Shown in pieces: positions 5,282 through 30,624 of a stretch of DNA of 36,646 nucleotides (positions within the stretch are counted from its first letter, which is position 1; each line of letters opens with the position of its first letter). A model generated the notes under the pieces. The model was not told the origin of the DNA and ran no database searches. It saw only the letters and a list, made by a program, of their open reading frames with translations. Both the position numbers and the translations under genes were made by a program. This stretch comes from a virus, in the IMG/VR virus record IMGVR_UViG_3300021437_000057, positions 1 to 36,646 of that record, one strand, 5' to 3'.

Positions 5282-5450
5282 CGAGCTCCTTCAGCTCTCG
5301 CAGGGTCTTCTGAAGCAGCTCGCGCTTCTCGCCGATGAAGGTCTGCATCTCCACGATGAGGGCGCGGAGCTCATCCTGGCGGTTCTTCGCACTGATGATG
5401 TCGTCCAGCAGCGCCTCCTTGCGGGAGAGCAGAATGTCACGCTGGTTCAT
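5259..5450 (-). CDS. Short coiled-coil protein
   Basis: 63 aa, almost wholly charged helix with regular Leu/Ile spacing (ILLSRKEALLDDIISAKN; ELLQKTLRELKELDE), so a coiled coil is likely. The ATG overlaps the stop of the gene upstream (ATGA). It has no signal peptide or membrane segment, so it is not an obvious spanin. It may be an oligomerising partner of the neighbouring nuclease, which is inference from overlap alone. Confidence 0.65.
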   Translation of the reverse strand: MNQRDILLSRKEALLDDIISAKNRQDELRALIVEMQTFIGEKRELLQKTLRELKELDETTQGI

Positions 5451-5737
5451 AGTTCCTTCGGTGTAGGTTCATCGAGCGCTCGAATGCTCGCTTGAAGCTG
5501 AACCAGAGCGCCGGTGCTGGTGACCCAGGCGCGCGCGTAGGTGCGCCGGCCGCTGAGGTCATCGTTCTTCTGGTCATACAGAAGCTCGTCGCGCAGGCTC
5601 TCAAGTTGAAGTTGAAGCTCGTCGGCGGTGATGCTGCTCATAGTTGGTCCCTCTCGGTAGGTTCGGTCGATGTCACGGTCCCAGGCGTCGTTGCATTCCT
5701 TGGAGCCAGCGATGAAGCCGCAGGCTGAGCAGATCAT
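5447..5737 (-). CDS. Small protein with Cys-containing N-terminus and helical domain
   Basis: 96 aa from the ATG at 5737, which overlaps the upstream stop (ATGA). An internal ATG at 5641 with a GAGGG-type site is an alternative giving 64 aa. The longer form begins MICSACGF and continues KECNDAWDRD, a possible incomplete zinc-binding element. The rest is helical (DELQLQLESLRDELLYDQKN). Function unknown. Confidence 0.6.
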   Translation of the reverse strand: MICSACGFIAGSKECNDAWDRDIDRTYREGPTMSSITADELQLQLESLRDELLYDQKNDDLSGRRTYARAWVTSTGALVQLQASIRALDEPTPKEL

Positions 5738-16378: not shown

Positions 16379-17398
16379 TTACCTCTGTTGAAGTTCAATG
16401 GAAATGAGACCCGCGCCTTGAGTTGCTGACCCGGGATTGATGTACAGGTTCACCTGCGTCGGAACTGCGTATTTAGAGGCGCTGGTGCTCTGATAGCCAG
16501 CCGCCTCGTACGGATCAATATTTGTCTGAAGGGATGCGTTATCCACTGAATCCCCAATCGTGAGGACCGCGCCAATCCCGTCGAACGGAATCTCGATGTA
16601 CGTCGTGATTACCTTGACCACGACATCGGCCGGCACCAGAACCAGTGGGAAGATTGGCACGACATTGAACTGGAACGGGACGTCAACCGTGCGACTCGAG
16701 GTCCACGCAAGTCCCGTTGCTGCAGTGCTGTCCGCCGTCAGGGTCTGCCCGTCGACGCCCACTGGCAGCCTTGTGCTTGCCGTCGCATCTCGAACGAAGA
16801 TGTCGCCGGTGGCAATCAATGGCGAGAGCGCCTCGCGCGTCGGTGCCGGATCCGTGAAGGTCAACCCGCCGGTGACGGAGTTGTAGTAGATTTGCGCTCC
16901 AGCCAATGCACTGGAGCTGTTCCACTGCAGTTGTCCGCTGGTTCCGCCAGCCGCTACCGTCGCCGTGATGGGATTGAACGAGAGGCCCGTAACACGCCCC
17001 GCGTGATCCACCGTGAGCGTCGGCGTCAGCGAGGGACCGCCGTACGTCCCTGGGCTGAGGAACACCGAGGCGAGGGACGTGACATTGCTGCCGCTCGCCT
17101 TGATGACGTCGCCCGTGAGCGCCTCGGAGAACTGCGTCCAGGAGCCACCCGCGTCGAAGTACAATACGCCCGTGTCCAGCGCGAAGTACAGCTCACCGAC
17201 CGATGGGACCGGTGGCCTTCCCGCGGCTGGTCCCTGAAACAGCGTCATCGGACCGTAGCTCGTCGCTGAGCCGTCCGTGACGAATCCGGACCCCGACGGC
17301 GGTAGACTTGCCTGTAGCGCGCTCAGAACCGCCAGCCAGCGCCGGTCAATGAGGTTCTTGCTGTCCGTGAACGGGACCTGAACTGGGAACTGAGCCAT
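16379..17398 (-). CDS. Tail fibre protein
   Basis: 339 aa from the ATG at 17398, which overlaps the upstream stop by one base (TGATG). The N-terminus reads VPFTDSKNLIDRRWLAVLSA. The middle has phage-fibre phrases (GELYFALDTGVLYFDAGGSW; DGQTLTADSTAATGLAWTSS). The C-terminus is beta-rich, similar in layout to the product at 15684 (a strand set around VPADVVVKVITTYIEIPFDG). One of several parallel fibres. Confidence 0.75.
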   Translation of the reverse strand: MAQFPVQVPFTDSKNLIDRRWLAVLSALQASLPPSGSGFVTDGSATSYGPMTLFQGPAAGRPPVPSVGELYFALDTGVLYFDAGGSWTQFSEALTGDVIKASGSNVTSLASVFLSPGTYGGPSLTPTLTVDHAGRVTGLSFNPITATVAAGGTSGQLQWNSSSALAGAQIYYNSVTGGLTFTDPAPTREALSPLIATGDIFVRDATASTRLPVGVDGQTLTADSTAATGLAWTSSRTVDVPFQFNVVPIFPLVLVPADVVVKVITTYIEIPFDGIGAVLTIGDSVDNASLQTNIDPYEAAGYQSTSASKYAVPTQVNLYINPGSATQGAGLISIELQQR

Positions 17399-18912
17399 CA
17401 GTACTCCACCCAGCACAGGCCAGCCTGCCCGGCGCCGCCGACGCCGTACGATGAGGTTGTCGTGTGTCCGCCGGCGCCGGGCCCGCCGTAGCCGGTCAGA
17501 TACGGGAATCCGGTGATGACGAAGCCAGTTCCGACGGAGCTGTTCGCGCCGGGCGTGCCACCACCGTCAACCTGCCCGGTTCCGTGCCCACCACCGCCGG
17601 CGTATGCCAGCGTGATGCCGAACGAGGTCTGTCCGCCGTCCTGCGCTGGGATTGACGTCGACGGACCACCCGCGCCACCCGCGCCAATCGCGACGGTGTA
17701 CGCATTGCCAGCCGTGACGGGCAGATACGTGAATGACATCGCGCCGCAGCCGCCGGATACGCCGTCGTGTGGATGCGGATCCGGACCGAAGGTTGCGTAT
17801 CCAGCACTGCCGCCACCGCCACCGCCGATGCAGGTCACCTTGACGTAGGACACGCCCGCCGGACACGTGAACACGCCATTCGAGGTGAAGATCTGCTGTC
17901 CGCGCGGAACGACCGTGCCGGCTGCCGGCAACGGATCCAACAGAATGAACGCTGAGCCAGACCAGGCGACCTGACTGAGTTGTCCGGCGCTGATGTGCAC
18001 GTCCACCAGGGCGCCGCTCGAATCGTACATCTTCAGGGGCTGCGCGCCCACTCCGTTGATGTTCAGCGTACTGGCGCCGGTCGAGGCGCTCGTGAACTTG
18101 ATGAGGTAGTGCTGGTCCGTCGAGTACGAGGTCAACGCCGGACTCAGCGTCACGACGTACGTGTTCACGCCGGTCGCCGTCCAGACCAGCGCGTCTCGCG
18201 CGCGCTGATTCTCGGTCGTGGCGATGCTCGTTGTCAGCGCCGTATTCACCGCATTGATCTTGTTCCCGACGGTGTTCGAGGTCGAGTACGACGCGCTGTC
18301 GAAGAAGCTCACGGCTCCGGCGTCCACGGTCTTCCCATTGACAACGTTCAGCGAGTACTCAGCCAGCGTCAGACCGGAGTTCAGTGGGCTGCCGTCGTTG
18401 ATGATGTCCACGTGCGTGTTCGGCGAGCTGAATGAGCTCCCCGAGACGACGCCGTACGTGTAGTTGCTGGATTGCGTCAGGCGAACGCGATTCCCAACGT
18501 AGAACTCAGACACGTGATTCCCACTGACCAGGAACGAGGTGCCAGTCAGGAACGTTGCCGCGCCGAGCGAGACCCACAGGGATGTTGAACCACCTCCGCC
18601 GCCGGTACTGCCACTTGGCACGCCCAGCGTGTTGTCGAACGTCTGCAGCACCGTGGTTCCGTCGCTCTTGGTCAGGACGAAGTTGTACGCCTCGGCCTCG
18701 GTCAGAAAGAATGCGACGCCAGCCGGCAGCTGTCCGGATGCCGTCAGGACGACCGGATTCGGATTCGCCACGTCGCCGACGGGCGTCGTCCAGGTGTCCT
18801 TCAGAACGCTCGTCGAGCCGGCATCGTAGGTGTAGATGTGTCCGCCGGCAAGTGGATTCCCGTTCAGGTCCTCGAAGATTGGCAGATTGAAGATTGGCGA
18901 CTGAAGCTTCAT
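17398..18912 (-). CDS. Tail fibre/adhesin with head-binding N-domain and glycine-rich C-domain
   Basis: 504 aa. Residues about 1-95 are a tail-attachment-type domain (NGNPLAGGHIYTYDAGST; NPNPVVLTASGQLPAG; SDGTTVLQTFDN). The middle is a helical/beta shaft. Residues about 340-504 form a glycine-rich domain (TCPAGVSYVKVTCIGGGGGG and several GGAGG clusters) like the Gly-rich adhesins of tailed phages, whose loops bind receptors. Its N-domain is duplicated as the separate gene at 18928. Adsorption to the host is the likely role. Confidence 0.85.
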   Translation of the reverse strand: MKLQSPIFNLPIFEDLNGNPLAGGHIYTYDAGSTSVLKDTWTTPVGDVANPNPVVLTASGQLPAGVAFFLTEAEAYNFVLTKSDGTTVLQTFDNTLGVPSGSTGGGGGSTSLWVSLGAATFLTGTSFLVSGNHVSEFYVGNRVRLTQSSNYTYGVVSGSSFSSPNTHVDIINDGSPLNSGLTLAEYSLNVVNGKTVDAGAVSFFDSASYSTSNTVGNKINAVNTALTTSIATTENQRARDALVWTATGVNTYVVTLSPALTSYSTDQHYLIKFTSASTGASTLNINGVGAQPLKMYDSSGALVDVHISAGQLSQVAWSGSAFILLDPLPAAGTVVPRGQQIFTSNGVFTCPAGVSYVKVTCIGGGGGGSAGYATFGPDPHPHDGVSGGCGAMSFTYLPVTAGNAYTVAIGAGGAGGPSTSIPAQDGGQTSFGITLAYAGGGGHGTGQVDGGGTPGANSSVGTGFVITGFPYLTGYGGPGAGGHTTTSSYGVGGAGQAGLCWVEY

Positions 18913-18927
18913 TGGATTCTCCGGTGT

Positions 18928-19218
18928 TTAGAGCGCGCTGACGCCGATGTTCTCGAAGGTCTGCAGCACGGTTGTCCCGTCGCTTCGAGTCAAGACCAGA
19001 TTGTAGCGCAGCCCGACGGTGAGCCAAATCGGCGCCAGCCGACCGGCGCTGTCCAGGATCACCGGATTCGGATTCGGCACGAGGCCAGCGCTGTCCGAGT
19101 ACGAGGTGCTCAGCGTGCTGAATGAGCCGCCCTGATACACGAAGACCTTGTGGCCAGCGGCTGGCTTCCCGTCGTTCGTGAGGAGCTGACCTGTAAAGAC
19201 CGGTGAAAGATTGAGCAT
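18928..19218 (-). CDS. Solitary copy of the fibre N-terminal domain
   Basis: 96 aa, essentially only the attachment domain of the next product. GKPAAGHKVFVYQGGS, NPNPVILDSAGRLAP and RSDGTTVLQTFENIGV match GNPLAGGHIYTYDAGS, NPNPVVLTASGQLPA and KSDGTTVLQTFDNTLGV in order. It ends where the partner continues into its shaft. It may be a cap, an adaptor ring, or a fibre that has lost its distal part. The complete SD-start-stop arrangement argues for a functional protein. Confidence 0.8.
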   Translation of the reverse strand: MLNLSPVFTGQLLTNDGKPAAGHKVFVYQGGSFSTLSTSYSDSAGLVPNPNPVILDSAGRLAPIWLTVGLRYNLVLTRSDGTTVLQTFENIGVSAL

Positions 19219-23478: not shown

Positions 23479-24936
23479 TCAGGCGGTGCCAGCCTCGGTG
23501 TCCAGATAGGCGCTCAGGAACGCAACCTTGACCGGCTCGTCAGTGAAGACTCGAAATACCGCGTCACGCGCTCGTCCGAGCCGCTGCCAGCGCGCCCGCG
23601 CGCGGTATTGCCCAATCTTGCCCATCGAGGCGTAGATTGGATTCCCCCAGGTGAAGCCGCCGTCGCGAGAGATTTGCAGGACGACGCGTGGATTCAGAAT
23701 CGCCGTGCCGACGCCGGGCTGAATGTCCACCTGCAGCGTCTTGTAGAATGTCCAGGCGAGGCCCGTCGTCGAGTGCGGCGTGTCTCGAAGCTTCCGAATC
23801 GGATACACATCATCCAGATAGAAGCTCTGGTCCAGCACGTACAGCTGTCCGTTGCGATAGTCCCCGACGAGGTGCTCGCCGTTCAGGAAGCAGTGCGTCT
23901 GACCAATCCATCGACCCATCACGCCGCCGATGAGCGACTGCCGCTCGGACCAGATTTTGCTGCTCAGGTCATAGATGAATGTCGTGCTGGCACCCGGCAG
24001 GTTCAGCGCGTAGAAGTAGTGCCCGTCCTCCTGCCACGCGAACGCCGTGCTCGAGCTGAGGTCGCCCAGCTCCTGCAGCCGATGCTCGATGGCATGCGTG
24101 CTCACGCGCGTCGGACTCTCATTCTCCATGCTGAACACGACGCCGTCACCCTGGTCGTTCGCACCGAGCCACATGAACGTGCTGGCGATTCGAGCGACGG
24201 TGCCGGCTGCCGTGCAGCCAACGTTCATCGCTCGACCCGGGATTGGCGTGAATGCTCCACTGACCGAGGCTGCCGTTGAATCCGGCGCCCAGACCTCGAT
24301 GGACCTCGAGCCGAGCAGGTACAGCTGCTGATTGTTGCTGATGACGGCGACGAGCGTATCCGGACTCGAGTCCACGCTGAACTCGTTCAGAGATGGCCAG
24401 ATGGTGCTGTCGGGCTCGCTGATGAAGAATCTGCTGACAAGTGGACCCTCGTCGGCGATGAAGTACCCGTTCTGATACGTGCACGTCACGGCGCCATTGT
24501 AAAAGTGCGCATCAACAATCGTCGTGAGCGTGTTCGTGGCCAGATGAAGCAGATACCCATTGGCGCCGTCCGTGAGCAGCACGTCCTCGCCGTTGTCCGT
24601 GATGGATACGAACCCGACGGACGTCGTCAGATTCCCGCTGATGAGGACGGGCGTGCTCTCGGCTGCGGTGAGCGCGTACACCTCGTTCCCGCTGACGATG
24701 ATAGAGCGCTGCGCCGTGCTGATTGTGTACGTCGCGCGAATCGGACCAACCCCAAGATTCTGAACGCGTCGAAGACCAGCGCACGAGTACAGCACGCCGG
24801 GCTCGCCACCCTTGCCGGCGCCGAGGTCGTTCAGCTCGAAGTACATGTTCACCAGGCGCTGCCCATCGAACGTTCGCGACCGAGCCTGATAGCTGCCGCC
24901 AAGGAATGGCCATTGAGACTTGCTTAGCTGTTCCAT
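23479..24936 (-). CDS. Packaged-DNA stabilisation / tail hub protein, P22 gp10-like
   Basis: 485 aa, close to P22 gp10 (472 aa). Long beta-rich protein starting near QARSRTFDGQRLVNMYFEL, with repeated blade-like segments (GNEVYALTAAES; LLTDGANGYLLHLATN; NNQQLYLLGSRSIEVW; DGHYFYALNLPG) suggesting a beta-propeller-like fold. It ends in an all-beta region (RVVLQISRDGGFTWGNP). Family role: sits below the gp4 ring and seals DNA in the filled head. It follows the gp4-like genes as in P22. Confidence 0.85.
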   Translation of the reverse strand: MEQLSKSQWPFLGGSYQARSRTFDGQRLVNMYFELNDLGAGKGGEPGVLYSCAGLRRVQNLGVGPIRATYTISTAQRSIIVSGNEVYALTAAESTPVLISGNLTTSVGFVSITDNGEDVLLTDGANGYLLHLATNTLTTIVDAHFYNGAVTCTYQNGYFIADEGPLVSRFFISEPDSTIWPSLNEFSVDSSPDTLVAVISNNQQLYLLGSRSIEVWAPDSTAASVSGAFTPIPGRAMNVGCTAAGTVARIASTFMWLGANDQGDGVVFSMENESPTRVSTHAIEHRLQELGDLSSSTAFAWQEDGHYFYALNLPGASTTFIYDLSSKIWSERQSLIGGVMGRWIGQTHCFLNGEHLVGDYRNGQLYVLDQSFYLDDVYPIRKLRDTPHSTTGLAWTFYKTLQVDIQPGVGTAILNPRVVLQISRDGGFTWGNPIYASMGKIGQYRARARWQRLGRARDAVFRVFTDEPVKVAFLSAYLDTEAGTA

Positions 24937-24940
24937 TGAA

Positions 24941-25735
24941 TCACCATTGCCGTGGAGTTACGCCGCCCTGAACGTTCTTGTACGCCCAGCTGTTCCCATG
25001 CCGAGTCAATGCCTGACCGGTGTTGCTGACGACGCCCTTCGGGAGTTGCTGATTCAGGCGCTTCACGGCGTCCTCGGCAATCACGGCGGTGGCGAGCAGC
25101 GTCTGGCTTGGCTCCTTGCCGAAGATTGCGGAGACCTCAATCGCCAGCTTCAGGCGCAGATAGCGCTCGTAGCCCGGCGGCAGGTTCAGCTCCTCGTCCA
25201 GCGACGAGTACGAGTTCAGCGGCTCCCACAGCCAGAGCTCAATCGCCTGCTGCTGGGTCGGGATTGGCCACACGCTGATTGTTCGCAGCGGATAGTTCCC
25301 GTTGTCGTAGAACACGGTCGGCCAGTTGTTCGGCATCGTGCGCAGGCCGATCTGGGTCCACTCGTACATCGACAGGGAGGTAAGTGGCGTCGTGACGGTG
25401 CCGGGACCGATATCAATGACGCCCGGCGAGACGATTGGCCACAGCAGCACCTTCGCCTGCTCAATGCGCATTGGACGCTCGGTGACCCAGTCCGCATTCG
25501 TCGGCAGGCCATCGTTCAATGCGGGTCCGAGCGTGTAGTCCTGCTGTCCGGGCACGAACAGATACCGATGCGGCGTGAACGTGTAGATGTTTAGCAAATC
25601 GTTATCAAGCGATGCCAGCAGCGAGTTCAGCGAGTCCAGGCAGACCTGCACGTCATCCGCCGATGGATCTTCGTTCGTGCTGACAACATTCAGCGAGCGC
25701 AGCGAGCCCGTGATTAGGTTCCGAATCGTTCCCAT
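24941..25735 (-). CDS. Head-tail adaptor, gp4-like, intact copy
   Basis: 264 aa. N-terminal helices (IRNLITGSLRSLNVV; DDVQVCLDSLNSLLASLDND), then DLLNIYTFTPHRYLF and PGQQDYTLGPALNDGLP, RPMRIEQAKVLLW, and the C-terminal WPTVFYDNGNYPLRTISVWP, LNLPPGYERYLRLKL, a helix to KRLNQQLP. This is the layout of head-completion/tail-accessory proteins placed after the coat gene (P22 gp4 position). Both halves have separate relatives in the two genes just upstream, so this copy serves as reference for the split one. Confidence 0.85.
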   Translation of the reverse strand: MGTIRNLITGSLRSLNVVSTNEDPSADDVQVCLDSLNSLLASLDNDLLNIYTFTPHRYLFVPGQQDYTLGPALNDGLPTNADWVTERPMRIEQAKVLLWPIVSPGVIDIGPGTVTTPLTSLSMYEWTQIGLRTMPNNWPTVFYDNGNYPLRTISVWPIPTQQQAIELWLWEPLNSYSSLDEELNLPPGYERYLRLKLAIEVSAIFGKEPSQTLLATAVIAEDAVKRLNQQLPKGVVSNTGQALTRHGNSWAYKNVQGGVTPRQW

Positions 25736-25737
25736 CG

Positions 25738-26733
25738 TTAGTATCCCTTCGTCTTCGGAACGTACGCCATTCCGATGATGTCATAGTATGTCCAGGCGTG
25801 TCCGCGTCGCTTCAGCGAGCCAGCCGCCGACGAGCGCTGCGCGATTGGCAGCTGCTGATTCAGCCGCTTCAGATTCGCCTCGGCCTCCGTCGCAATCGAG
25901 ACGACCGTCAGGGCTGGCTCCTTGCCCATCTCGGCAGCCAGCTCCAGAGCGAGCTGATACGTCAGGTAGCGCTCGTAGCCCGGCGGCAGATTCAGCTCGG
26001 AGTTCGGGTCCACGAAGACGTTCAGCGGCTCCCACATCCAGAGCTCAACCGCGTTCACGTCCTGTGGGATTGGCCAGAAGAACAGCGTTCGCAGTGGATA
26101 GTTCCCGTTATCGTAGATTGCTGTTGGCCACTTGTTCCACATTCCACGCAGGCGAATCGACGAGAACTCCTCGTCGGAGAGCTTCTCCAGGTCCAGCCAG
26201 ATTGTGCGCTGGTCCGTCAGAACTGGCGTCTTGACGACGGTGACGAGCTGCGACGCGCTGACGGCGCCCGTTGCGTACGTCACGGTGAGCGTCACGTTGT
26301 ACGCGCCAATCTCGAAGATTTGCGTCTGAGCGCCAGCGCCAGAGGACGTCACGCCGTTCCCGAAGTCCCAGTGGACGCTCAGGGCGCCGCCAGCCAGATG
26401 CGGCACGAACGTAATCTGCTTCGAGTACGAGTGCGCCTGCTGAACCTCGAAGGTCGCCAGCGAGATTGGCAACGGCGTCACCGTGACGGTGCTCTCGGTT
26501 GCCTTGACGGGACTGTTGCCGGTGGCGTACGAGACGTACAGCGTCGGCTGATAGATGCCCGGCGTTGAGTACGTGTGCGGCGTGCTCGCTGGACTTGTAT
26601 TCGAGTCGCTCGTCCCATCGCCCCAGACCCAGAGGTACTCCGTTGCGTCGCCAGTGACGGAGGTCACGGTGCCGATGATGTTCAGTGGACTTGCACCCGA
26701 CGACGGGTCAATGTGAATGGCTGCGAGATTCAT
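25738..26733 (-). CDS. Two PKD-like domains fused to the C-terminal half of a gp4-like adaptor
   Basis: 331 aa. Residues about 8-85 (LWVWGDGTSDSN, then HTYSTPGIYQPTLYV) and 90-170 (VHWDFGNGVTSS, then FEIGAYNVTLTV) are PKD/Ig-like domains. From about residue 175 the sequence matches the second half of the intact adaptor at 24941: WPTAIYDNGNYPLRTLFFWP, LNLPPGYERYLTYQLALEL, KRLNQQLP. There is no adaptor N-terminus; it is in the preceding gene. The ATG has GGAG nine bases upstream and lies one base after the preceding stop (TGAGATG), so both products can be made separately. Confidence 0.8.
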   Translation of the reverse strand: MNLAAIHIDPSSGASPLNIIGTVTSVTGDATEYLWVWGDGTSDSNTSPASTPHTYSTPGIYQPTLYVSYATGNSPVKATESTVTVTPLPISLATFEVQQAHSYSKQITFVPHLAGGALSVHWDFGNGVTSSGAGAQTQIFEIGAYNVTLTVTYATGAVSASQLVTVVKTPVLTDQRTIWLDLEKLSDEEFSSIRLRGMWNKWPTAIYDNGNYPLRTLFFWPIPQDVNAVELWMWEPLNVFVDPNSELNLPPGYERYLTYQLALELAAEMGKEPALTVVSIATEAEANLKRLNQQLPIAQRSSAAGSLKRRGHAWTYYDIIGMAYVPKTKGY

Positions 26734-26734
26734 C

Positions 26735-28381
26735 TCAACGGACTCCGATGTTCGGTTGGCGATTCACGTTGATGTACGTGCTGTCAACCGTGATGCCATC
26801 GTGGTCACCGGCGACGTAGTACTGCTCGCCGTCCGTCGGCGTTGGACCGACGACCACCGTGGCGACCCAGAGACCACCCGGCGAGTCAATCGCGAAGTAG
26901 TCCGTGACCCACAGATGGTCACCCGGCAGCCCTGAGAACAGGTAGTGCGGCTCATAGGTCGTGAAGTCCCCTGGATTCGTTGTCTGCACGTAGTCATAGA
27001 CGGCGCGCGGCTCAGCAAGAGGTGGCAGCGGACCAGCCGTGTTCCCGACGCCGAGCCAGGTGCCGTGCGCATCCGTGCCGTTGCTGATGAGGTACGGATT
27101 CGCCGTCATTCCGTTGATTGGCGTTGTCTGCGGAATCAACGCGCCGACGTCGATTGGAGTCGTCGCGTCAATGAATCCAGTCACGCCGACCTGTCCCTCG
27201 AAGCCATTCCGGAACGAGACCTCGAGCCAGTGGTCATAATGCGGCACGATTGGCGCCGGATGCGTGCCGACCATAATCTTCGCGCCAACCGTGCGCTCCG
27301 GCGAGGTCGCAGATGGACTGAAGCCAGACGTGCCGTTCTTCATGAAGTACATGCCGCCGTTGCCGTTGATGATCACGCCCAGCACGTCGCCGTTGTCGAA
27401 CGTTGGCGCTCCCGTCGTCGGCGTCAGATTGTAGTCTCTCGTCGTCCCATCGGAGCGCCACCAGGTGCTGTAGTCGTTGATGTACGGCGAATCCACGTTG
27501 ATGCCGCCCGTCGTTGGCGCGCAGCCCACGAAGAACAGACCCGTCTGCGGCTTCTTGACGACGACCTCGGCGATATACGCGTTGTTCGCGGCTGGGACGG
27601 CGGTGTTCCCGATTGCCGCTTGCATGTCCTGCGGATTGAAGTACACGTTCAGGGAGTCAACGAACGAGGTATTCGTTGCGACCTGCGTCGTGTCAAAAGC
27701 GCCGCCGAGCTCGGAGTACGTCAGCAGGAACGCATCCATAAACGCCGCGTACTCAGCCCAGTACTGCATCGAGGCCTGCGAAGTGCGCAGCTCGAACGTG
27801 ACGTCCGGCGAGGCGCTCACGAATACCGGTGCCGAGCTGATTGCGTCGCCGAACTCGGTGCCGACAACGCACGAGACGCTGTAGTTCCCGGGAGTGAGAT
27901 ACGTGTGCGTCGGTGCTGCGAGCGAACTTGTGAAGCCATCGCCGAAGTCCCACGAGTAGGATTGCGGCGTATTCGAGCAGGTCACGGACGCACTGACGTG
28001 CAGCTGCACGTTGCCGAGATCTGGAGTGACCGTGACGGCTGCCGTGGGAGTGACAACCAATGGGGCTGGCTCCGTTGCCGTGAACAGCATCAACTTCGCC
28101 TCCTCGATTCGCATCGGACGCTCCGTGACCCAGTCGGCTCCGGTTGGAAGTCCATCCTCGCCGAGCGCCGGTCCGAGCGTGTACGCGTTCTTGTTCGGCG
28201 TGAGCTCAAATCGCTGCGGCACGAACGTGTGAATGTTCAGCAGATCCGCCGATTTGGACTGAATGAGCGCGTCCAGCGCCTCGATGGCATTGGATTGGTC
28301 CTGAGCGGTGGCGTCCTCGTTCGTGCCGATTACATTCAGCAGGCGCAGCGCGTTCGTTGTGAGTTGGTGGATTGTGGTCAA
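26735..28381 (-). CDS. N-terminal half of a gp4-like adaptor fused to PKD and SPRY-like domains
   Basis: 548 aa, TTG start fixed by GGAGG upstream and by alignment of MTTIHQLTTNALRLLNV with the N-terminus at 25735 (MGTIRNLITGSLRSLNV). Residues 1-105 match the first part of the intact adaptor up to RPMRIEEAKLMLF. Residues about 107-190 form a PKD domain (YSWDFGDG, then HTYLTPGNYSVSCVV). Around 330-385 GDVLGVIINGNGGMYFMKNG fits a SPRY-like fold. The remaining C-terminus is beta-rich and unassigned. The adaptor's second half is missing here and present in the next gene. Confidence 0.8.
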   Translation of the reverse strand: MTTIHQLTTNALRLLNVIGTNEDATAQDQSNAIEALDALIQSKSADLLNIHTFVPQRFELTPNKNAYTLGPALGEDGLPTGADWVTERPMRIEEAKLMLFTATEPAPLVVTPTAAVTVTPDLGNVQLHVSASVTCSNTPQSYSWDFGDGFTSSLAAPTHTYLTPGNYSVSCVVGTEFGDAISSAPVFVSASPDVTFELRTSQASMQYWAEYAAFMDAFLLTYSELGGAFDTTQVATNTSFVDSLNVYFNPQDMQAAIGNTAVPAANNAYIAEVVVKKPQTGLFFVGCAPTTGGINVDSPYINDYSTWWRSDGTTRDYNLTPTTGAPTFDNGDVLGVIINGNGGMYFMKNGTSGFSPSATSPERTVGAKIMVGTHPAPIVPHYDHWLEVSFRNGFEGQVGVTGFIDATTPIDVGALIPQTTPINGMTANPYLISNGTDAHGTWLGVGNTAGPLPPLAEPRAVYDYVQTTNPGDFTTYEPHYLFSGLPGDHLWVTDYFAIDSPGGLWVATVVVGPTPTDGEQYYVAGDHDGITVDSTYINVNRQPNIGVR

Positions 28382-28739: not shown

Positions 28740-29963
28740 TTACGACAGGATTGCCTTCACTGCCAACTGGCTATACAACGGCGCCCAGCCCCCGAGCATG
28801 TCGATACGCATGATGGTCGCGTAGCTGTGGATGTCGAACTGCTTCGTCACGACGCACGACAGACCCAGCTCCGGCACCGAGGCACGGAAGCCAGTTGCGC
28901 CGTCCTGCGGCTCCGGCAGGTCAGCCGTGCCGAACACGAAGGCGTTCTTGTGGAAGCCAATCGCCTCGACGGCAGATGCGCCAGTTGCGCCGAACACGGT
29001 GATTGCGGCGTTGTCAGCCGGCAGCGCATCCACGTTCTGACGTGGGTCACCTGGGCCGATGATCTCCGGCGAGATGCTCAGCGTCTGCGTTGCACCCGCG
29101 CCGTTCTTGGCCGTGACCGTGAACTGCTGCAGATAGCCCTGCGAGACCTTCGTCTGACCATTCACGGCATTCACGCCGGCGATGGTGAACACGGCGCCCA
29201 CGTCGAGCGTCGTTCCGCCGGACCAGCCATCGGTAATCAGGCTGGAGCCAGATTGCGACGCGCCATTCACGAGCGGAGTGCCACCGTACGTGCCGGTCGT
29301 GTACGGCGTGATGAGCTGCTCTTCCATCCAGTCGAACCCGCCGGCGTTGTACACGCGACCACCCTTGTAGCCAGCGCTGATGTCAGCGACCGGATTGAAG
29401 AGCGAGGTCAGGTACTGGAAGCCCAGCGCCATTGCCGCCGGAGTGGCGACGAGGTTCAGCGGCTCACCGACCGGAGCGAGGTTCTCGACGAGCTTCTGAC
29501 GAGCGGCGCCAATCACGCCGAGCACGCCAGCGGTTGTGTTCGGCGCTGAGCCGACGGTGCCCACGGCGTTGTTCGCGTACTGCTTCGCCAGGACGAGACC
29601 GTCATAGTCAATCTCGTTCGCCATCGAGATCAGCGCCGGACGCAGATAGCGGCCAGTGAAGTCATCGATGGACAGCGCGAGGTCCTTCTGGTCCATGACG
29701 AACGCGCGCTGGTACTGCTTGTTCAGCACGAGCGGCAGGCCCTTGTCGTTCAGGGCTTGAATGTCAATCGCGGCGCCATTCGAGAACCGGAACTGAGCCG
29801 GCAGACGCATCGAGGTCGTGTCGCCAATCTTCGCGCCGGTGCGAGCGAAGCGGTCATCGTAGCCGCGATTCACCTTGTTCGTGAAGCCCAGCGAGTTGCT
29901 CAACACTTCGGCAGAACGGTATGATACGTCCGCCATCGTGAGAAAACGATTTGAGGTAGCCAT
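28740..29963 (-). CDS. Major capsid (coat) protein, P22 gp5-like
   Basis: 407 aa, close to P22 coat (430 aa). N-terminus FLTMADVSYRSAEVLSNSLG, then DTTSMRLPAQFRF, and a C-terminal GFHKNAFVFGTADLPEP with MRIDMLGGWAPLYSQLAVK, all in the order typical of P22-type HK97-fold coat proteins. The central region (about 220-300) probably contains the inserted I-domain-like part. ATG with AAGGAAA upstream. Forms the icosahedral shell on the scaffold encoded upstream. Confidence 0.9.
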   Translation of the reverse strand: MATSNRFLTMADVSYRSAEVLSNSLGFTNKVNRGYDDRFARTGAKIGDTTSMRLPAQFRFSNGAAIDIQALNDKGLPLVLNKQYQRAFVMDQKDLALSIDDFTGRYLRPALISMANEIDYDGLVLAKQYANNAVGTVGSAPNTTAGVLGVIGAARQKLVENLAPVGEPLNLVATPAAMALGFQYLTSLFNPVADISAGYKGGRVYNAGGFDWMEEQLITPYTTGTYGGTPLVNGASQSGSSLITDGWSGGTTLDVGAVFTIAGVNAVNGQTKVSQGYLQQFTVTAKNGAGATQTLSISPEIIGPGDPRQNVDALPADNAAITVFGATGASAVEAIGFHKNAFVFGTADLPEPQDGATGFRASVPELGLSCVVTKQFDIHSYATIMRIDMLGGWAPLYSQLAVKAILS

Positions 29964-29988: not shown

Positions 29989-30624
29989 CTAGAAGTCAAT
30001 CAGGTAGCTTTTGGCGATAAGCCTATGGACACGTTCAGCTGCCCAGTATTCAGTTCGAATCTTTGAAAGCTTCTTGCAGGTTGATTCAGAGACGCCCACC
30101 TTGGCGATGAACTCGTTGCGTGACGCACTCTGTCTCTTTTTGGTCTCATCTGTGAAGGTTCTTCCAAGATTTGGACCGCCTGTCTCTTTCTGTTTCGAAC
30201 TCGCAATGCTCAACTTCTTTCTGGTTTCAGAGCTTGGAGGAGGTCTTAGATAGGCCTTGCGAGATTGCTCAGCCTTTGCCTCTTCGGTGTGCTTTTTACC
30301 CTTGAAAGTGCTTGGTTTTCCCTTCATGTTGTGGCTTATCGCCTCAGAATGAAGTCTTCGAACCCAATCAATTTTTCGTGAATTGTAGCGTCTATTGTGA
30401 GACATTTTTCCGACCGCGTACTTGAGGTCATAGTTGTCTGGATAGAGCTTCACGAGAAGTTCATGAGCAACGAAGTGTTCCCTTGCCGTTAGCCTACGAA
30501 GATTCTCTGGTTCATCATTCCCGCCAATGCAACGCGGAAGAAGATGATGCTTCTCAGAGTATCCTTCCAACTTTCTGGTCCGGGCTCGGTCCATCAGCTG
30601 GTCGTAGATGCGCTGGTAGTTCAT
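29989..30624 (-). CDS. HNH homing endonuclease with NUMOD3-like repeats
   Basis: 211 aa. KHHLLPRCIGGNDEPENLRR and LTAREHFVAHELLVKLYP at residues about 25-62 are a His-Me finger/HNH core with the HH, N and H residues. NMKGKPSTFKGKKHTEEAKA and FTDETKKRQSASR are NUMOD3-like DNA-binding motifs, and a helical DNA-binding end follows. It sits between scaffold and coat genes, is visibly more AT-rich than its neighbours, and has a weak ribosome site. These are the marks of a free-standing homing endonuclease that invaded the morphogenesis operon. Confidence 0.85.
   Translation of the reverse strand: MNYQRIYDQLMDRARTRKLEGYSEKHHLLPRCIGGNDEPENLRRLTAREHFVAHELLVKLYPDNYDLKYAVGKMSHNRRYNSRKIDWVRRLHSEAISHNMKGKPSTFKGKKHTEEAKAEQSRKAYLRPPPSSETRKKLSIASSKQKETGGPNLGRTFTDETKKRQSASRNEFIAKVGVSESTCKKLSKIRTEYWAAERVHRLIAKSYLIDF

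Follow-up and report, generated by a model that had tools for sequence, protein, structure and literature searches.

Genes C and B of a P22-type podovirus appear to encode a two-piece head-tail adaptor of the P22 gp4 type whose exchangeable arms, probably host-binding, are displayed at the neck of the virion, a reading to which we assign a probability of about 0.72. The window (the whole stretch of DNA analysed, 36,646 bases) is a single IMG/VR virus record whose portal, coat, scaffold and gp10/Hc3 genes mark it as P22-type, and between coat and Hc3 it carries three ORFs on the minus strand, C, B and A (Table 1), which were found where the preliminary description of this DNA had placed them. 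Head-tail adaptors make up a 12-fold ring exposed to DNA pressure, and are regarded as conserved plumbing. If a ring subunit is indeed made of two chains with display domains at the cut, this joint tolerates cutting and offers a new virion site for host-binding modules, which would account for their swapping and suggests a natural route to two independent domains per ring subunit. The combination of a two-piece ring adaptor with display domains at the cut was not found in the phage records or papers searched, and a literature search for a PKD-bearing head-tail adaptor found none.

Table 1. Features of the adaptor locus and related genes in the window
Feature	Position	Strand	Evidence or detail
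P22-type coat protein, upstream of C	28740..29963	-	PF11651 E 9.4e-30
Gene C, 548 aa, TTG start	26735..28381	-	adaptor N-half + PKD + SPRY + NGF domain
Adaptor N-half in C (helices 1-2, first beta strands)	28073..28381	-	blastp to A E 5e-35; HMM; model
PKD domain 1 in C	27812..28057	-	Pfam PF18911 E 2.3e-13
SPRY-like domain in C; first part of block shared with L052	27266..27811	-	RanBP9/10 SPRY profile match E 3e-5; 73% aa to L052
NGF domain in C; second part of block shared with L052, ends at stop codon	26738..27265	-	recurrent, no known fold match
Gene break	26731..26746	-	GGAG 26743-26746, stop TGA 26735-26737, one base, ATG 26731-26733
Gene B, 331 aa	25738..26733	-	two PKD domains + adaptor C-half
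PKD domains 2 and 3 in B	26218..26733	-	Pfam PF18911 E 1.3e-16, two stretches
Adaptor C-half in B (last beta strands, helices 3-4)	25741..26217	-	52% to A, E 1e-50
Gene A, intact adaptor paralogue, 264 aa	24941..25735	-	phrog_12985 E 2.6e-34; phrog_637 (head-tail adaptor family, weak match) E 9.7e-6; model Z 16.2 to P22 gp4
Loop of A, residues 99-113 between strands 91-98 and 114-121; counterpart of insert and break	25397..25441	-	
Head closure Hc3 / gp10-like, adjoins A downstream	23479..24936	-	phrog_578 E 1.8e-88
Tail fibre C-terminal 174 aa; other outlier common to L052 phage	17398..17922	-	84% aa, fibre N-part 41%

Homology and fold of the two halves

Comparison by blastp showed that the first half of A is repeated in C (64/146 identical residues including the edges, 44%, E 5e-35) and the second half in B (75/145 identical, 52%, E 1e-50), as had been proposed for the 548-aa and 331-aa products, and A is 51% identical overall to C and B taken together. 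Both halves break off in the same loop of A, past the segment AKVLLW (AKLMLF in C), in agreement with the single insertion point claimed earlier. No Pfam match for A was obtained at E 1, and a search of the window's own record found no adaptor pieces beyond A, B and C. The gene order coat - adaptor - gp10/Hc3 is present, as in P22 gp4-type adaptors.

The model of A (pLDDT 84) matched P22 gp4 over 113 residues, and also Sf6 gp7, T7 gp11 and others. In it helices 1 and 2 are contributed by the N-half and helices 3 and 4 by the C-half, and the cut position lies in the hairpin of the loop listed in Table 1. C and B were modelled as a fusion in a single chain, with TGAG read as one residue and an alignment in which no row spanned both halves; alignments of whole split products, which put SPRY segments on the C-half, were discarded. 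This fusion matched P22 gp4 with Z 16.2 over 112 residues (rmsd 2.8, spanning 1-847), its confident N (1-105) and C (727-845) parts joining into the gp4 fold, and most of the inserts had pLDDT of ~25-40. One of the outcomes that the preliminary description named as refuting it was a failure of the two halves to complement each other, and the modelling instead favours their completing one gp4 adaptor fold in silico, with a tethered single-chain model that cannot show separate chains meeting.

In the models, A and the joined halves have a fold like that of P22 gp4, Sf6 gp7 and T7 gp11 (Ad3 class, PHROG 637), and the gene position between coat and gp10/Hc3 is likewise shared. Those adaptors are single chains, whereas here there are two polypeptides with PKD, SPRY and NGF domains at the cut. 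C and B might build a second, separate ring stacked on that of A rather than a mixed ring or one two-piece ring. Tails of podophages can contain between one and three dodecameric adaptors (PMC11784390), and 'dual tubeA' podoviruses, PhiGT1-like and Bcep22-like (PMC10386132), share with the window two adjacent adaptor paralogue genes. However, these dual adaptors are extremely divergent and were joined by genome fusion (PMC10386132), whereas A and C+B are 51% identical with one copy split, and one relative, L015, has only a single split copy. Stacking is a real possibility, at rather less than even odds.

Recurrence of the split among relatives

Using profiles of both halves, we found relatives of the adaptor and classified each locus. 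Complete split copies occur in seven further virus records (L010, L014, L015, L019, L020, L022 and L052) and partial split cases in L011/L012 and L016. Both copies are split in L010, two split pairs and a surplus N-half are present in L014, and the split copy of L015 is its sole copy. Two tandem intact copies without inserts were found in L021, L023/L024, L045 and L051, whereas cultured phages, among others, have one intact copy each. Between L019 and L020, which come from two samples, the break is the same and dN/dS is 0.03 for the N gene and 0.05 for the C gene. The gene split is genuine, recurrent and under purifying selection in the relatives.

As the window retains an intact A, as do L019, L022 and L052, it could be argued that A alone forms the ring and that C (and B) are separate virion adhesins anchored by an adaptor half, for example on the outside of the ring; stand-alone N-halves in L014 likewise indicate that an N-half may be useful by itself. 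This is unlikely, since the four-helix core requires both halves, the adaptor C-half with its helices is retained in nearly all cases, and L010, L014 and L015 have no intact adaptor on their contigs, though the coat-to-Hc3 stretch is present (in L014, the part adjoining Hc3). The halves alone therefore probably form the adaptor in these three, and an intact partner is probably not needed for the split adaptor; the split relatives are all known from metagenomic contigs, most of them incomplete, and an intact copy could sit elsewhere in the genome. In L014 (L018 coordinates 123-1845) the surplus N-half is followed by a gene that starts mid-PKD and carries SPRY without a C-half, and then by a second N-half and an unrelated 98-aa ORF. 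The N-half and PKD piece lacking a matching C-half look like decay or reshuffling.

According to the preliminary description this arrangement is not known from any standard P22-type phage, and nothing similar was found among 50,697 phage records, including any cultured phage searched. A DNA-level search of the phage records and a single-sequence search of viral contigs gave no match, and scanning of bacterial and archaeal genomes yielded no relatives.

The gene break and its translation

The break in the window reads CGT TGA G ATG, so that one base separates C and B, with GGAG 9 nt upstream; the TTG start of C is itself preceded by GGAGG. At 8/9 junctions examined there is a duplex resembling a Shine-Dalgarno pairing (-5.8 to -11.8 kcal/mol, against a median of -3.0 kcal/mol over all ATGs on the window's minus strand), and the junction without one is in L014, at a cut within a PKD domain. 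We propose that C and B would be translated from one mRNA via stop and restart.

B lies in the +1 frame directly at the TGA of C, and a programmed frameshift could join the two genes in some copies into an 880-aa fusion, as in SPP1 gp17.1*, frameshifting being a common route for adding Ig-like domains (PMC9022992). However, at the junctions of the relatives a stop codon is accompanied by a ribosome site and followed after 9-12 nt by an ATG, the frame relation of the two genes is not kept among them, and in L014 a whole other ORF intervenes, which makes a frameshift very improbable. Selenocysteine insertion or stop readthrough was set aside because the next gene is in a different frame and has its own start. 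That the split is an artefact of sequencing or assembly, or marks a duplicate in decay, is hardly tenable, for although every split case is metagenomic and L014 has a PKD domain cut midway and a surplus N-half, the split is repeated in at least seven other records with proper starts and ribosome sites, and these repeats together with the L019/L020 pair refute sequencing or assembly error for the group.

Phage enzyme genes that are split, with products that reassemble, include Aeh1 nrdA, phage 25 gene 43 and T4 topoisomerase (PMC2988022), and the present genes resemble them in having a coding region in two pieces. In those enzyme genes the split was made by, or lies close to, a homing endonuclease or some other insertion, whereas here a ring-forming structural protein is cut and display domains stand at the cut. 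Splitting by a homing endonuclease was rejected for the window, as the C/B break holds one base and no endonuclease gene. The endonuclease of the window is a free-standing homing endonuclease (29989-30624, minus strand; phrog_655 E 1e-48, NUMOD3) between the scaffold and coat genes.

Domains carried at the break

One PKD domain in C (E 2e-13) and two stretches in B (E 1e-16) score above the Pfam threshold, as the preliminary description had expected, and so do PKD domains in relatives; they constitute Ig-fold domains on predicted virion structural proteins. The domain that it had called SPRY-like had no Pfam SPRY match as a single insert sequence, a weak Laminin_G_3 match for one insert being all that Pfam gave; the call was borne out by a profile of six homologous inserts that matched the SPRY domains of RanBP9/10 (E 3e-5) and SPSB3 (E 1e-3). 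The beta region left unassigned there has nothing credible in PDB (best E 0.41), but it is a recurrent domain (NGF), with five copies in four phages. Across the split records the inserts come from one pool of PKD, SPRY-like and NGF domains, with polyproline as well in L015 (Table 2).

Table 2. Layout of split adaptor copies (N and C, adaptor halves)
Record	Layout
Window	N-PKD-SPRY-NGF / break / PKD-PKD-C
L052	N-PKD-SPRY-NGF / break / PKD-C
L019	N-PKD-SPRY / break / PKD-C
L010, first copy	N-PKD-SPRY / break / NGF-PKD-NGF-C
L010, second copy	N-SPRY / break / PKD-C
L015	N-polyPro-SPRY / break / PKD-C
L022	N-NGF / break / PKD-C
L014	N / other ORF / NGF-C; and N / break / PKD-C

The N gene of L015 (5951-6910, minus strand) has >30 prolines between the adaptor N-half and SPRY, a run that resembles a stiff spacer.

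It had been suggested that a paralogue gained domains in a loop and was then divided. Inserts and division do fall at one loop, and insertion may or may not have preceded division. Among the relatives classified, no unsplit large insert was seen at the break loop. Unsplit inserts occur at another loop in PBR31, L027, L028, L038 and L058; in PBR31 (L009:3572-4522), L027 (607-2424) and L058 (3995-5014) this loop precedes the DW..RP motif. The 'tail tubular protein A' of Xanthomonas phage PBR31 (317 aa) and the IMG/VR protein of L027 (606 aa) are alike in being gp4-type adaptors with an insert, and differ in that their insert is at this different loop and never split in the set examined.

Ig-like domains are known in five phage structural protein classes, head-tail adaptors not included (PMC9022992), and phage proteins bearing PKD domains have been proposed as adhesins (PMC13370021). 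The domains at the break are similar to the Ig-like display domains of Fraser 2006, as cited in PMC9022992, and of SPP1 gp17.1* in being Ig-folds on virion proteins that are promiscuous and horizontally spread; they differ in their site of addition, which is here a gene split and not a C-terminal fusion or a frameshift.

As the proposed pieces of a single P22 gp4-type adaptor, C and B would assemble as subunits of the neck ring, which they would either share with A or build as a second ring. The cut in the beta-hairpin loop would give each half a free terminus at that loop, and these termini would bear the PKD spacers and the SPRY/NGF binding domains, protruding at the neck. Being terminal and not nested, the domains could be swapped between phages with the adaptor undisturbed. 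Their likeliest use would be as an accessory host- or glycan-binding collar alongside the tail fibres.

Exchange of the domains and probable exchange of the fibre tip

A tree built from only the adaptor parts does not unite the split copies in one clade (AU p 2e-13); it requires five changes, of which well-supported branches force at least three. The split L022_a groups with the intact L021_a and L051_a (support 100/98), and A and C+B of the window fall in one clade (100/100).

The SPRY-NGF block of the window and that of L052 are 76% identical in amino acids and 76.6% in DNA over 1,081 bp, and the shared block ends exactly at the stop codon of C, that is, at the gene break. By comparison, the N-half, C-half, A, coat and Hc3 are 38-46% identical between the two phages, Hc3, adaptor, coat, scaffold, portal and terminase have amino acid identities of 30-47%, and the remaining structural genes overall are 30-58% identical. 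The fraction of four-fold sites that differ is 0.42 within the block and 0.65 outside it (Fisher p 2e-6), and the GC3 of the block in L052 is that of the window (0.80) and not L052's own (0.64-0.74). As these sites are less diverged and GC3 follows the window, the block is, judging from codon-level comparison, horizontally exchanged rather than under stronger constraint alone. The SPRY-NGF cassette was found in no phage or plasmid record, and among viral contigs in L052 only.

The only other strong outlier among the structural genes of this pair is the C-terminal part of the tail fibre, a putative swapped receptor-binding tip. L019, which is closer to the window in core genes, has neither the shared block nor the shared fibre tip. 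This one phage pair, which is no proof, suggests a role for the neck domains in host binding, jointly with the fibre tip. Whether the split adaptor is a general neck socket, with modules exchanged together with the fibre tip so that adhesins switch as a set upon host change, is a tentative idea, to which we would give a little short of an even chance.

Apart from these, short stretches at 5286-5734 of the window, outside the structural genes, have ~89-90% DNA identity to the L052 record. Besides, a 96-aa ORF (18928-19218, minus strand) matches stretches of L052 and L019 at and just before the starts of their tail-fibre genes and looks like a free-standing copy of the tail-fibre anchor part.
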